Position numbers and translations under genes: made by a program. Below the pieces are notes generated by a model that had not been told where the DNA came from, did not search any database, and saw only the letters and a program-made list of their open reading frames with translations. From contig JAHISX010000075.1 in NCBI GenBank assembly GCA_018817915.1, forward strand, positions 1 through 32,782: DNA of 32,782 nt. Direction: 5' to 3'. This stretch comes from Bacillota bacterium (GTDB lineage: Bacteria > Bacillota_I > Bacilli_A > Acholeplasmatales > Acholeplasmataceae). This document shows, in pieces, positions 5,432 through 22,951 of the stretch (position 1 is the stretch's first letter; each line of letters opens with the position of its first letter).

Positions 5432-6080
5432 ATCATGCCATGTTCATTATGATACTGACCTTGAACATTGTATTTTATGTAATGGTGAGCTTGAACAAGA
5501 AGGCGATCAAATCTCCGTTTATAAATTCAGTGACATTACCAAACGATCCGCTTCAAGATTCTTTAATCGCTTTTTCATCTTCATTAATGTTATAAGTGCC
5601 CTGATTTGTTTATATTTAGATTTAATCAGTGGATTACCATTAACTTGGTCACTGGTTGTAACAATCACTAATATATATGTTATTGTTATGTTCACTGTCC
5701 TTGCTGTTCCTACACTCTGGACTTCAAAAATGACAAAAAGCATTATAGTAACTGTTATGGCCATCATTTTGATTGGTTTAGCTATCAGAGATTATTCATG
5801 GGCAATCGATTTTGTTTTCCCAATTGCAGTAGGTACCAATATCTTTTTAATTTCACTGCTCATCATAACCAATAAAAAGAAATGGTATGATTATTTCGCT
5901 GGACTAACGATTATAACCTTAATTGGTTTGATTCCAGGACTGTTTAATTTGATTCATTTGACAACACAAAGAGTTCCTAGTTTTATCTGCTTCTCATATG
6001 CTCTGATTACATTGCTTGGCATCATCTTCTTACCTTCAAAATCAAGTCGAGAAGAATTCAAACGAAGATTTCATGTTTAA
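5418..6080 (+). CDS. DUF6320 zinc-ribbon membrane protein
   Basis: This 220-residue protein starts with a four-cysteine zinc-ribbon-like motif (Cys4, Cys7, Cys18, Cys21 in YCKSCHVHY and CILCNGEL). After a short linker there are about six hydrophobic segments, for example FFIFINVISALICLYLDL, SLVVTITNIYVIVMFTVLAV, SIIVTVMAIILIGLAI and FICFSYALITLLGIIFL. It fits the DUF6320 family, commonly met next to alcohol-acetyltransferase-like genes. AAGGAGG at 5405-5411 places the start better at 5418 than at the adjacent ATG 5415. The overlap of 14 bases with the preceding acyltransferase points to a two-gene unit. I infer a membrane partner or anchor role; no enzyme motif is seen. Confidence 0.75.
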   Translation: MKYCKSCHVHYDTDLEHCILCNGELEQEGDQISVYKFSDITKRSASRFFNRFFIFINVISALICLYLDLISGLPLTWSLVVTITNIYVIVMFTVLAVPTLWTSKMTKSIIVTVMAIILIGLAIRDYSWAIDFVFPIAVGTNIFLISLLIITNKKKWYDYFAGLTIITLIGLIPGLFNLIHLTTQRVPSFICFSYALITLLGIIFLPSKSSREEFKRRFHV

Positions 6081-6103
6081 GGCGATCAAATCGCCTTTTT
6101 TTT
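6081..6103 (+). terminator. Intrinsic terminator of the acyltransferase-DUF6320 operon
   Basis: GGCGAT-CAA-ATCGCC followed by eight T, starting at the base after the DUF6320 stop codon. Confidence 0.92.
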
Positions 6104-6130
6104 ATAAAAAAACCACAAGTTATTGTGGTT
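6104..6130 (-). terminator. Intrinsic terminator of the CBS-domain gene
   Basis: On the minus strand AACCACAA-TAAC-TTGTGGTT runs into a T-rich stretch. The stem overlaps the last codons and stop of the CBS gene and abuts the terminator of the opposite operon, giving back-to-back termination. Confidence 0.85.
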
Positions 6131-6578
6131 TAATGTCTTGATTGAGTTCGTGGTTTTGATGATTGATTACATCAGTTTTATTGATCATTTGTTGAACCAT
6201 ATAACTAAAGATATCTTTTCTAGTAATTAAGCCAATGAATGTTCCAAAGTCATCTAAGACTGGAACAAAGTTTTGTCTGGTTGCTACGTCAATAATATCT
6301 TCCATATTGGTATAAATTGGTACAGATACATTATCTTTATTTCTTGGTACTTTTGAAACTGGTATTGTTTCCGTTTTTGAAAAATTTAATTGTCTATCTT
6401 TGATGAACCATAATAAATCGCCTTCGCTCAATGTGCCTACATATGCACCTTTTCTGTCTAGAATAGGAATAGAGTTATATCTATAAATCTGCATTTTCTC
6501 TAAAGCTTGTCGGATGGTATAATCATCATACAAATATGCCACCTTTTCTTTGGGTGTCAATCTAAATAAGACGTTCAT
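6120..6578 (-). CDS. CBS-pair domain protein
   Basis: This 152-residue protein is made almost only of two CBS domains. The first spans about residues 10-65, with YRYNSIPILDRKGAYVGTLS and the EGDLLWFIKD turn. The second spans about 75-135, with QNFVPVLDDFGTFIGLITR and the KDIFSYMV helix. CBS pairs bind adenine nucleotides or related ligands and act as energy or second-messenger sensors; stand-alone pairs of this size occur widely in Clostridia and Bacilli. There is no membrane, kinase or IMPDH part. It is not a close match to the c-di-AMP-binding DarB/CbpB sequence as I recall it, so I give no symbol. AAGGAG lies six bases before the start. The tail after residue 138 is polar and probably disordered. 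Confidence 0.85.
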   Translation of the reverse strand: MNVLFRLTPKEKVAYLYDDYTIRQALEKMQIYRYNSIPILDRKGAYVGTLSEGDLLWFIKDRQLNFSKTETIPVSKVPRNKDNVSVPIYTNMEDIIDVATRQNFVPVLDDFGTFIGLITRKDIFSYMVQQMINKTDVINHQNHELNQDIKPQ

Positions 6579-6654: not shown

Positions 6655-6688
6655 TAAAAAACGAACATACTGACCTTTAGGTCAATAT
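6655..6688 (-). terminator. Probable terminator after the small membrane peptide gene
   Basis: On the minus strand TGACC-TAAA-GGTCA, extended by outer ATA/TAT pairs, is followed after a few bases by a T-rich stretch (A-run at 6656-6661 on the plus strand). The stop codon of the small gene lies in its loop. Confidence 0.6.
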
Positions 6689-6793
6689 ACTGTCACCTGG
6701 TCCGTGAATATAAAATCCAAATTTAGATCCAAAACTTGCTGCCACAAGCGTACATATAAGAGTCTTTACGAAAAAATAAATCGTCGTTTTCAT
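6677..6793 (-). CDS. Small membrane or exported peptide of 38 residues
   Basis: This small gene lies in the 337-base gap between the CBS gene and pheA. It starts at ATG 6793 with GAGAGG five bases upstream, codes for 38 residues and stops inside a terminator stem. The product begins MKTTIYFFVKTLICTLVAAS, a lysine followed by one hydrophobic segment, then FGSKFGFYIHGPGDS. That could be a single-pass membrane peptide or a signal peptide with almost no mature part; there is no lipobox. An extended -10 promoter lies 33-61 bases upstream. A promoter, ribosome site and terminator around such a short frame make a real gene likely, but I do not recognise a family and infer no function. Confidence 0.55.
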   Translation of the reverse strand: MKTTIYFFVKTLICTLVAASFGSKFGFYIHGPGDSILT

Positions 6794-6825
6794 ATTGAAC
6801 CTCTCGAATTGTTATCTACATAAAT

Positions 6826-6854
6826 ATTATAACACAGTTATAATGAAATTACAG
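6826..6854 (-). promoter_or_regulatory. Extended -10 promoter for the small membrane peptide gene
   Basis: On the minus strand TGTTATAAT (extended -10, hexamer 6826-6831) with a poor -35 CTGTAA 17 bases before. It sits divergently next to the pheA promoter. Confidence 0.45.
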
Positions 6855-6915: not shown

Positions 6916-7728
6916 ATGAAAAAAGTTGCAGTTCTAGGTCCTAAAGGAACTTTTAGTGATTTAGCAAGTCAAAAATATTTAAATGGTACTGAATATGAAA
7001 CCATATATTTTCCTTCTATTGATGCGACTGTTGAGGGCCTTAAACATGCAGATTTAGCAGTTGTACCAATAGAAAATACCTTAGACGGTTATGTTCAACA
7101 AACACTAGATTTAATCCTAGAGCATAAATTCTATGTTGTTGATGAAATCTATGTGCCTGTTCAGTTTTCTTTAATTGCTCAAGTTCTCAAACTCAGTGAG
7201 ATTAAACGCGTTTATACGCAATTTGTCACAAAAGGACAATGTCAGCAATTTTTGAAGAAAATACCTTATGAAAAATTGATAATAACAGATAGTAATATGG
7301 AATCATATCAAATGGTTTTACATGGTCATCAAGGAGATGCGGCAATCGTTCCTTTTCATATGGTAGATACTTATAATGGTTTTAAAATCCAAAATGTTAC
7401 TGACTCAAGTGAGAACTTTACGCGTTTCTTCATTCTTGCAAAAAAAGAAGGCACTAAAATAGAAAAAGAAATGAAGGTATCCATTGTTGTTGTTCCAATC
7501 AACGATAGACCTGGTCTTCTTTTTGATATATTAGGTATTTTTAAGAAATATGATATTAATTTAGTATCGATTATGTCTAGACCAACAAAAAAGTCTATGG
7601 GCAATTATAATTTCTTTATTGAAATGAAAGCAAAGCTCAATGATCAAGAAAAGATCAATCAAGCATTATTAGAAATTAAAAAAGATTTTTTCATTCAAAT
7701 CTTAGGTATTTATCCAACCAGTAAATAA
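6916..7728 (+). CDS. pheA: Prephenate dehydratase
   Basis: This 270-residue enzyme converts prephenate to phenylpyruvate, the committed step to phenylalanine, in the cytoplasm. The N-terminal catalytic domain opens with VAVLGPKGTFSD and holds VVPIENTLDGYV (49-60) and the diagnostic TRF (169-171). A C-terminal ACT domain from about residue 188 has DRPGLL and SIMSRP, the Phe-binding feedback site. Length agrees with the monofunctional Bacillus enzyme (about 285). AGGAG eight bases upstream fixes the start at 6916; the ATG at 6877 precedes the likely promoter -10. It is a single-gene unit with its own terminator and no other aromatic pathway gene in the window, so whether the organism makes phenylalanine cannot be judged here. 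Confidence 0.93.
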   Translation: MKKVAVLGPKGTFSDLASQKYLNGTEYETIYFPSIDATVEGLKHADLAVVPIENTLDGYVQQTLDLILEHKFYVVDEIYVPVQFSLIAQVLKLSEIKRVYTQFVTKGQCQQFLKKIPYEKLIITDSNMESYQMVLHGHQGDAAIVPFHMVDTYNGFKIQNVTDSSENFTRFFILAKKEGTKIEKEMKVSIVVVPINDRPGLLFDILGIFKKYDINLVSIMSRPTKKSMGNYNFFIEMKAKLNDQEKINQALLEIKKDFFIQILGIYPTSK

Positions 7729-7730
7729 TA

Positions 7731-7765
7731 AAAAGTGGAAGATCATTTGATCTCCCACATTTTTT
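7731..7765. terminator. Bidirectional terminator between pheA and the symporter gene
   Basis: The stem GTGG-A-AGATCA pairs with TGATCT-C-CCAC around a two-base turn, with an A-run before and a T-run after (7760-7765). It lies between two convergent stops. Confidence 0.88.
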
Positions 7766-9131
7766 ATACGTTAACGCCTCGTCTACCACGAATAAGCAAG
7801 ATGACTGTGAATGTTAAAGTGTATAAGACACAACCTAACAATGCTATCCAACTCCATAAGGTCTCATTTGGAGAACCATATGCTAATGATGGAATGAACA
7901 GAATACCAAACAATGGTAATGCCATACTGATTGCTGTTCCTGAACCAAGTACCATTTCTTCAGCAACTGGAGATTCCAAATTTGGATCAATACCTTTTAA
8001 TAAGGCTAACCCTGTAGAAGCAACGCCTGTAAGCATTCCAAATAATCCAATGAAATATTCATCATTGTAATTACCATAAATACGTTTTGTCATATATTTT
8101 AAATAGAATAGAGTAGCAATACCAGCTATAGCCGATGTGATAACTAACTGAACCCCATATGATGCTAAGAAATCAAGAGTGATTGTTAACACAGATCCAG
8201 CAATCATGATATTGAATGCAAATGAGGCAATATTTGATAATACATAGTTATTCGTCATAAAACGAATATTTTTACCTTTTTTCTCAAATGCTTTTAAGCC
8301 TTGTTTATAGATTAAGGCAATCAATATACCTATAATGAAGTTAAAACCCTTTAGAAGGCCATAAACTGTGCCACCGATACCATCTGATGGCAGTAAAGCA
8401 TGAGCAGCTAATAGAATAAGATAGACCACACCATAAATGATTGATATAATAATGGCTTGTGTAGTCAAACCATCAAGTAAGCTAATTTCTTTAACGGTAT
8501 CAATTTCAACAGTTGCAGTTCCTGATGATGTTTCATCATATCTCCTTAAATTAGCGAATCCTCGTTTTCTACTAATGATATTGATTAAAATAACCCCAAT
8601 GGTTCCACCAAAAACAAATCCTAAGAATGCATAAGAAACACCGAGTGTTGCACCATTGCCTTCTAACATATCAGTCCACATATTACCAATGGATAAAGCT
8701 AATCCTGGCCCTTGACCAAAGCCTAATGCAACTAACATACCAGAACCTAGAAATTTATCACTAAATAAAACAAAGACTAAGATGATACCAATAATTGCTT
8801 GTAAAGAGTAAGTACTTGTAATCAACATACCAGTCGACCAAATCTTTTTCTTAATCTTGCTGGTATCACGCTTCAATGCTAAAGCAATAAAGCCAATTGC
8901 TAATGCATGATAAACAATATATCCCATTTGGTCAACATCAATAAATGTATCTTGACCTGGCACAAATAATGGTGTAAAAACTAATGAAATAACCAATCCA
9001 ATAAAACCACCTAATAAAGCTGTAGGAATAACAACCTTATTTAAACCTGGAACCCAAGTTTTTAAAGCCTTTGCGATAAACATTAAAACTCCGATAAGTA
9101 GAAAATAGACGATAATATCCCATTCTTGCAT
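7764..9131 (-). CDS. ESS-type sodium:glutamate symporter-like membrane transporter
   Basis: This 455-residue integral membrane protein has about ten to twelve hydrophobic segments and resembles the ESS (GltS) family of sodium-coupled glutamate carriers. It shows the internal two-fold layout of the family: a first half with GFGQGPGLALSIGNMW near residues 147-162 and a second half with YFIGLFGMLTGVASTGLALL near 366-385, both glycine-rich re-entrant-like stretches. A long polar loop (about 195-220) separates the halves. It is longer than E. coli GltS (401), so the substrate may be another anion or amino acid. AAAGGAG eight bases upstream supports the start; this site overlaps the end of the PlsC-like gene four bases away, so the two form an operon. 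Confidence 0.8.
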   Translation of the reverse strand: MQEWDIIVYFLLIGVLMFIAKALKTWVPGLNKVVIPTALLGGFIGLVISLVFTPLFVPGQDTFIDVDQMGYIVYHALAIGFIALALKRDTSKIKKKIWSTGMLITSTYSLQAIIGIILVFVLFSDKFLGSGMLVALGFGQGPGLALSIGNMWTDMLEGNGATLGVSYAFLGFVFGGTIGVILINIISRKRGFANLRRYDETSSGTATVEIDTVKEISLLDGLTTQAIIISIIYGVVYLILLAAHALLPSDGIGGTVYGLLKGFNFIIGILIALIYKQGLKAFEKKGKNIRFMTNNYVLSNIASFAFNIMIAGSVLTITLDFLASYGVQLVITSAIAGIATLFYLKYMTKRIYGNYNDEYFIGLFGMLTGVASTGLALLKGIDPNLESPVAEEMVLGSGTAISMALPLFGILFIPSLAYGSPNETLWSWIALLGCVLYTLTFTVILLIRGRRGVNV

Positions 9132-18686: not shown

Positions 18687-18715
18687 ATTATACCATTTTA
18701 ACCCATAAAAAAAAA
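18687..18715 (-). promoter_or_regulatory. Extended -10 promoter for recD2
   Basis: On the minus strand TGGTATAAT (hexamer 18687-18692) lies 22 bases before the recD2 ribosome site. The -35 position falls in the T-run of the mnmA terminator and is not informative. Confidence 0.5.
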
Positions 18716-18733
18716 GGAACTCAAGTTCCTTTT
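18707..18733 (-). terminator. Intrinsic terminator of the nadD-nadE-mnmA operon
   Basis: On the minus strand GGAACT-TG-AGTTCC, with flanking A/T pairs, runs into nine T. It overlaps the mnmA stop codon. Confidence 0.9.
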
Positions 18734-22505: not shown

Positions 22506-22928
22506 TTGGACATTAAAGAAAGATATTACCAAAAAATTAGAACAGACAACATGCGTTTGACGAAAAGTCGAAAAGCAATGATTGAAATACTAGAAAACCA
22601 ACACTTAACATTTAAAGAAATTCAAAAAGCTTTAGCAAGTAGAGGTTTCTACAATATTTCCACAATATACAATAATCTTGAGTTTTTAATTGATCAAAAA
22701 ATTATTGTAGAAATTTATATCAATGATACGAAATATTATGATCTTGCAATGGGTAATCCTATGCACAGCGCAGACAGTCATATTCATATCATGAATAAGG
22801 ATACAAATGAAATTACTGAAGTTAATAGTCCTGATATCTTCGAATATTTGACTAAACATCCATCGTTCAAAGATTTAGATCTTGAATACATTAGAATCAT
22901 TATATCCGCACATAATAAGAAAAAATAA
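22506..22928 (+). CDS. Fur-family transcription regulator without zinc cysteines
   Basis: This 140-residue protein has the Fur/PerR/Zur layout: an N-terminal winged helix (LTKSRKAMIEILENQHLTFK, then the recognition helix ISTIYNNLEFLIDQKIIVEI) and a C-terminal dimer domain from about residue 85. The metal region reads MHSADSHIHIMNKDTNEITEV where common members have HHH and CxxC. No Cys occurs anywhere in the protein, so the structural zinc site is absent, although His residues of the regulatory site (HSADSHIH) remain. The specific metal or signal cannot be told. The start is most likely TTG 22506, ten bases after AAAGGAG; the TTG at 22497 is one base from that site and is too close. It is a single-gene unit. 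Confidence 0.82.
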   Translation: MDIKERYYQKIRTDNMRLTKSRKAMIEILENQHLTFKEIQKALASRGFYNISTIYNNLEFLIDQKIIVEIYINDTKYYDLAMGNPMHSADSHIHIMNKDTNEITEVNSPDIFEYLTKHPSFKDLDLEYIRIIISAHNKKK

Positions 22929-22951
22929 GCACTTAAAAAGTGCTTTTTTTT
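22927..22951. terminator. Bidirectional terminator between fur and rsmH
   Basis: AGCACTT and AAGTGCT form the stem, followed by eight T on the plus strand; an A-rich run precedes it for the minus strand. It starts at the last base of the fur stop and lies seven bases from the rsmH stop. Confidence 0.9.

Follow-up and report, generated by a model that had tools for sequence, protein, structure and literature searches.

A short conserved reading frame between a palindromic promoter and a cbpB-like gene in an Acholeplasmataceae genome, possibly a leader cistron

We analysed a 32,782-nucleotide stretch of DNA from a Bacillota bacterium of the family Acholeplasmataceae (assembly GCA_018817915.1, contig JAHISX010000075.1, positions 1 to 32,782), hereafter the window, focusing on a 38-codon open reading frame (ORF) that lies unannotated between a gene for a two-CBS-domain protein and a divergent pheA gene. 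The original prediction, made from the sequence alone, had read this ORF as a small membrane peptide with its own promoter and terminator. Comparison with related genomes indicates that it is probably a real, conserved and narrowly distributed small frame. The promoter in front of it, by the same comparison, goes with the CBS-domain gene and not with the ORF.

The gap that holds the ORF spans 337 bases, from the start of the CBS-domain gene (6578) to the pheA ATG (6916), and its parts are as the original prediction had described them: a 38-codon frame with a good ribosome site, an extended -10 sequence divergent from pheA, a terminator whose loop holds the stop codon, and a peptide made of one hydrophobic segment and a short tail (Table 1). 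Of 2000 random 337-base stretches drawn from a first-order model of the same composition, 0.9% contained an ATG-started frame of 38 codons or more preceded by a ribosome site (19.6% without the site). The hydrophobic segment itself is unremarkable, as about 17% of 2000 open frames generated at random were equally hydrophobic. Judged by eye, the -35 of the extended -10 is weak, and the hairpin is the sole terminator-like match between positions 6200 and 7200 (shuffle mean 0.1). For the CBS-domain gene the best NCBIfam model was NF041630 (CbpB; 68 bits, E 7.5e-19), which scored under its curated cut-off of 125 and clearly at the top of the 19 families listed. Its product is thus probably a CbpB/DarB-like receptor of cyclic di-AMP (c-di-AMP), and we refer to the gene as cbpB.

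Table 1 Features of the cbpB-pheA locus in the window
Feature	Position	Strand	Remarks
38-codon ORF MKTTIYFFVKTLICTLVAASFGSKFGFYIHGPGDSILT, from ATG	6677..6793	-	Hydrophobic segment at about residues 4-21, then a short polar tail
Ribosome-binding site GAGAGG	6800..6805	-	Six bases 5' of the ATG; same in the sister species G009
Extended -10 TGTGTTATAAT	6826-6836	-	Fits TRTGNTATAAT perfectly, as does one further site in the window
Palindromic extended -10 promoter ATTATAAC-TGT-GTTATAAT (8-3-8)	6826..6844	-	19/19 bases same in G009
Opposite palindrome arm, TATAAT toward pheA	6839..6844	+	-35-like TCTACA at 6815, spacer 18; consensus match only
Intrinsic-terminator-like hairpin	6664..6691	-	12 pairs; loop TAAA holding the ORF stop (6677-6679); then T-run CGTTTTTT
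Two-CBS-domain protein, CbpB/DarB-like, probable c-di-AMP receptor	6120..6578	-	Downstream cistron; PF00571, 65.4 bits
pheA, prephenate dehydratase with ACT domain	6916..7728	+	Divergent neighbour; PF00800, 134.8 bits

The original prediction had proposed a search for homologues among relatives and had named their absence, together with a lack of codon-level constraint, as what would speak against it. The search returned an orthologue in a sister species (G009; the window's own genome is G000), and the constraint on codons, discussed below, is modest. The G009 peptide, MKSVIYFFVETLLTVLVAASYRYNFGLYVHGPGDN, occupies the same place, is encoded by 35 codons and is 63% identical to that of G000, in an alignment that is gapless over 105 nucleotides. 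G009 also retains the promoter, the ribosome site, the start, the frame and the core of the hairpin, which argues for an unannotated but real small frame. Identity between the two genomes is 19/19 in the palindrome, 28/33 in the 5' untranslated region and 82/105 in the frame, falls to 40/74 (54%) 3' of the hairpin and returns to 15/15 across the ribosome site and ATG of cbpB. The two peptides share residues at both ends (IYFFV.TL, LVAAS and HGPGD), with HGPGD near the C-terminal end of each.

An order-wide search of 160 genomes matched the peptide in G000 and G009 only. Among 61 near relatives, 11 genomes matched at E 1, G000 and G009 strongly; the nine further genomes, and two extra places in G009, matched at E 0.019 or worse, which we take as chance. 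A two-row profile run over the 20 genomes of the genus gave one weak match, in G019 and with two stops, and a wider search of genome contigs returned one locus, which we take to be that of G009. No relatives of the peptide were found in viral contigs or, by tblastn, in plasmids and phages, and the DNA of the region had no match in phages. Across the genus that DNA matched, outside G000 and G009, just the palindrome itself (G018 and G015) and short AT-rich stretches, and a nucleotide profile built from both leaders yielded no additional locus among those searched. The peptide is single-copy in its genome, had no family match in Pfam or NCBIfam, and belongs to no named family.

The promoter is far more widely distributed than the frame. 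A close cbpB orthologue is present in 18 of the 20 genus genomes, the other two (G010 and G019) having a distant paralogue only. Each of the 18 carries exactly one TTATAWCTRTGWTATAMT site with 0 mismatches, and it lies upstream of cbpB; G010 has no such site and G019 just one with 1 mismatch. Because the palindrome precedes cbpB in 18 of 18 genomes and the frame in two only, the label of an 'own promoter' in the original prediction is misleading. The distance from palindrome to cbpB is 114-247 nucleotides in 16 genomes, 870 in G002 and 854 in G015. Outside the genus, the site is present in 3 of 3 genomes of genus g10 and absent from the nine other family members examined. A promoter scan between the hairpin and cbpB found no promoter-like site, in a scan that misses weak promoters and missed the palindromic one too.

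The two arms of the palindrome co-vary: by hand count, 12 of 21 sites read AAC/GTT and the other 9 ATC/GAT, and the arms are never mixed, though the pattern permitted mixing, the 21 sites coming from related genomes and not from independent events. The arms could form an operator or make the promoter symmetric, the plus-strand arm giving a -10 toward pheA. Bidirectional promoters are reported from E. coli and Salmonella plasmids (PMC12825309, PMC10268837); the gene on the pheA side, however, converges rather than diverges in G009 and the other relatives read, which makes the operator reading at least as likely. A wide palindrome regulon in G000 was considered and rejected, as the loose pattern TTATAACNNNGTTATAA, searched at 2 mismatches, was rarer than its reversed control (35 versus 63). 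A tighter pattern gave a few additional promoter-placed sites across the genus. These include one-mismatch palindromes before a Na/Pi-cotransporter-like gene (G003 and G014) and a pyruvate-kinase-like gene (G016), all named by eye (L090, L095, L091), each with a cre-like site of the AACGTTTT type upstream. The right arm also resembles the CcpN consensus; a CcpN N-terminus was unmatched in G000, in a search with no positive control, and the idea of CcpN as the regulator was dropped.

What lies between promoter and cbpB varies. Across the 18 genomes, this slot holds the short frame in G000 and G009, a lipoprotein gene in G002 and G015, and in the other 14 nothing that is evidently a gene preceded by a ribosome site. 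A terminator-like hairpin was found in 4 of 19 leaders tested (G000, G009, G018 and, weakly, G001), compared with 0.41 expected from shuffles. The arrangement of a leader is present at the locus, with a short ORF and its ribosome site between promoter and cbpB, and a terminator-type structure, hairpin plus T-run, at the ORF stop in G000 and a weaker one in G009. The leader of G018 (L033) also has a cre-like palindrome, GAAAGCGCTTTAC, at the transcript start.

The anatomy, synteny, conservation and shared promoter of the locus were read from the genomes compared. The reading that we tentatively favour, at somewhat less than even confidence, is that the frame is a translated leader cistron of the CbpB/DarB-like gene, with a leaky terminator that sets read-through. 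RNA polymerase would start at the palindromic extended -10 promoter and copy the 38-codon ORF, and the hairpin at the ORF stop codon would end some transcripts as a short RNA, while the remainder would read on into cbpB, which itself has no detectable promoter. A ribosome that has come to the ORF stop would mask the 5' arm of the hairpin and favour read-through, so that cbpB expression would track translation of the ORF, and perhaps membrane insertion of its product. In favour of this reading are the tie of the palindrome to cbpB rather than to the ORF, the lack of a promoter-like site after the hairpin in the scan, the signals retained in G009 and the presence of a terminator in the G018 leader as well. 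The original prediction had offered a small regulator of a membrane complex, a toxin-like peptide or a leader as possible functions. Of these, a leader is favoured, a membrane-complex regulator is still a candidate, and the toxin found no support.

Several observations weigh against a translated leader. G018 keeps promoter and terminator with no ORF that has a ribosome site, which means that attenuation does not require the ORF. The G009 hairpin retains its GACC..GGTC core on a weaker stem and T-run. Stops inside hairpins are, moreover, ordinary in the window: by hand count, of the 10 genes that end in a 3' hairpin, 4 have a stop codon overlapping the hairpin, that of cbpB lying wholly in the loop, and coupling of translation to read-through is accordingly something we infer. 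Amino-acid identity between the two peptides, given the observed base changes, is no better than random (P 0.17), and with only two orthologues constraint on the peptide and on the RNA is inseparable. The hairpins that overlap stop codons in the window lie at 6110-6131, 6079-6097, 18712-18733 and 22927-22945. A stop codon in a terminator loop was entertained as a special sign of attenuation and rejected after this control on neighbouring genes.

The original prediction had also suggested comparing synonymous with nonsynonymous change in relatives. Between G000 and G009, nonsynonymous divergence of the frame (dN 0.24) is indeed below synonymous divergence (dS 0.34); constraint specific to codons, with dN/dS about 0.7, is modest, and so is the codon-level evidence as a whole. 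Neighbouring genes have dS values of 0.93 (cbpB), 1.11 (the membrane-protein gene) and 4.2 (DUF6320, saturated). Beside these values, both classes of site in the frame are slow. Four-fold sites changed at 1 of 11 positions in the frame; the neighbouring genes together had 142 of 268 changed (Fisher 0.004), and cbpB alone 16 of 40 (P 0.053). Such synonymous conservation is the expectation if the RNA acts in cis. The replacements between the two peptides are conservative (P 0.010), and when half of the sites were changed neutrally in simulation, 0 of 20,000 runs retained 22 of 35 residues.

The same data bear on two further readings. The frame may instead encode a lineage-specific small membrane protein that acts in trans; it would then be an ordinary gene bounded by its promoter and terminator, and cbpB merely the next one in the operon. 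The residues held at both ends of the peptide and the conservative replacements fit such a protein, and terminators hugging stops are the usual gene end in the window by hand count; its restriction to two sister species among 160 genomes, the equal conservation of synonymous sites and the dN/dS speak against it, and we consider this reading unlikely, if still a serious one. Less probable again is a small regulatory RNA, coding or not and similar to SR1, that is processed or terminated at the hairpin. The discrete promoter-to-terminator unit, conserved base by base with synonymous sites included, would suit it, as would the ORF-less promoter and terminator of G018. Against it stand the ribosome site, start and open frame, all kept without gaps, a leader fold no better than shuffles (z -1.0) and the lack of any Rfam match at gathering thresholds in the window and 17 cbpB loci.

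The lipoprotein in the slot of G002 and G015 suggests where the frame may have come from. It has 276 residues in G002 and 272 in G015 (L046, L048), with an aBig_2 domain, a CPWC motif recognized by eye and a lipobox cysteine. The peptide aligns without gaps to the N-terminus of the G002 protein, MKKWFLALTLLMILILVGACKQESPSFFLLSPGDTETS, with LVAAS opposite the lipobox LVGAC and PGD in the same residues (32-34 of G002). The four peptide-lipoprotein pairs scored above regional shuffles with P values of 0.0026, 0.0008, 0.0006 and 0/5000, and at the DNA level P was 0.002-0.028. We give about an even chance to the peptide being an N-terminal remnant, comprising the signal segment and first residues, of this lipoprotein. 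Place, promoter and gapless N-terminal alignment are shared; what is missing is the lipobox cysteine, replaced by serine, and the folded domains, as the frame stops after 38 or 35 residues. Two results count against a common origin: 1-2 of 34 unrelated signal-like N-termini reached equally high scores against G002 or G015, and a profile of seven lipoprotein N-termini gave P values of 0.08 and 0.04.

In a tree of cbpB and DUF6320, G000 groups with G009 (0.976) and then with G018 (0.968), and G002 and G015 sit on separate branches over a backbone with weak support (0.46-0.72). Their separation fits ancestral presence and repeated loss, without proving it. The full-length lipoprotein was not found in G000, and G009 had just short matches to a stretch of the N-terminal domain.

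If the frame did descend from this gene, it might be a decaying remnant with no present function. The full-length gene in the slot of G002 and G015 and not in G000, and the serine in place of the lipobox cysteine, are what decay would leave; the frame has nevertheless survived a neutral divergence of about 1 in dS, at which a neutral frame stays open in 25% only and the 22 of 35 shared residues were never reproduced in simulation, and we regard simple decay as improbable. A toxin-like peptide, type I or similar, is short and has one hydrophobic segment as here, and can be nearly dismissed given the single genomic copy, the searches of viral contigs, plasmids, phages and families that returned no relative, and a plus-strand promoter-like site that is directed away from the ORF.

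Returning to the leader cistron, one speculative extension, to which we give little credence, would join it to the remnant origin: the eroded lipoprotein stump would serve as a nascent-chain sensor whose export or insertion sets the time that ribosomes spend on the terminator, and hence the level of the c-di-AMP receptor. Translation of the frame, if it occurs, would tie a small membrane peptide missed by annotation to a probable c-di-AMP receptor. The CbpB/DarB-type receptor of Bacillus subtilis connects c-di-AMP to (p)ppGpp, according to PMC7900238. The frame is ordinary in kind; its possible origin is what makes it interesting. With a lipoprotein, a 38-codon frame or nothing behind one promoter in one slot, the fate of a truncated gene becomes directly testable among relatives. 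No paper on the locus was found in the open-access literature searched.

The neighbourhood differs between the species on its other side. pheA is not at the corresponding position in G009, where a gene for a 454-residue membrane protein stands instead, and it is present in only 5 of the 20 genus genomes; in another genus, G022 and G035 have a pheA-like start, recognized by eye in the upstream sequence, that diverges beside cbpB. This distribution suggests patchy loss or transfer. In the window, a 455-residue membrane protein is encoded at 7764-9131; it is conserved beside cbpB in the genus and, within the limits applied, matched nothing in Pfam or NCBIfam. In many genus genomes the cbpB-like protein also has a second paralogue with CBS domains, at 34-41% identity (L049-L060).

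Two kinds of known system resemble the locus. The SR1/SR1P locus of Bacillus subtilis likewise gives a short transcript, made from a promoter of its own and carrying a frame of 39 residues (PMC8501984). Unlike SR1P, the peptide here is hydrophobic, with a downstream cistron, no Rfam match and no known target; Rfam, NCBIfam and Pfam gave no match of the SR1/SR1P type, the presence of SR1/SR1P in those libraries being unchecked. The other kind comprises the nascent-chain leader cistrons CutF (upstream of cutO in Rhodobacter capsulatus), SecM, VemP and MifM. SecM, MifM and CutF are defined by ribosome stalling, whereas the likeness drawn here comes from the arrangement of the sequence. The hairpin, terminator-like and not obviously hiding the downstream ribosome site, and a single proline (in GPGD) rather than a proline-rich stretch, also set the locus apart from them. 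What the locus would share with these leaders, as described in PMC9973294, is a small first cistron, exported or inserted into the membrane, with a stem-loop at or after the stop, a downstream gene on the same transcript and conserved C-terminal residues that include proline.
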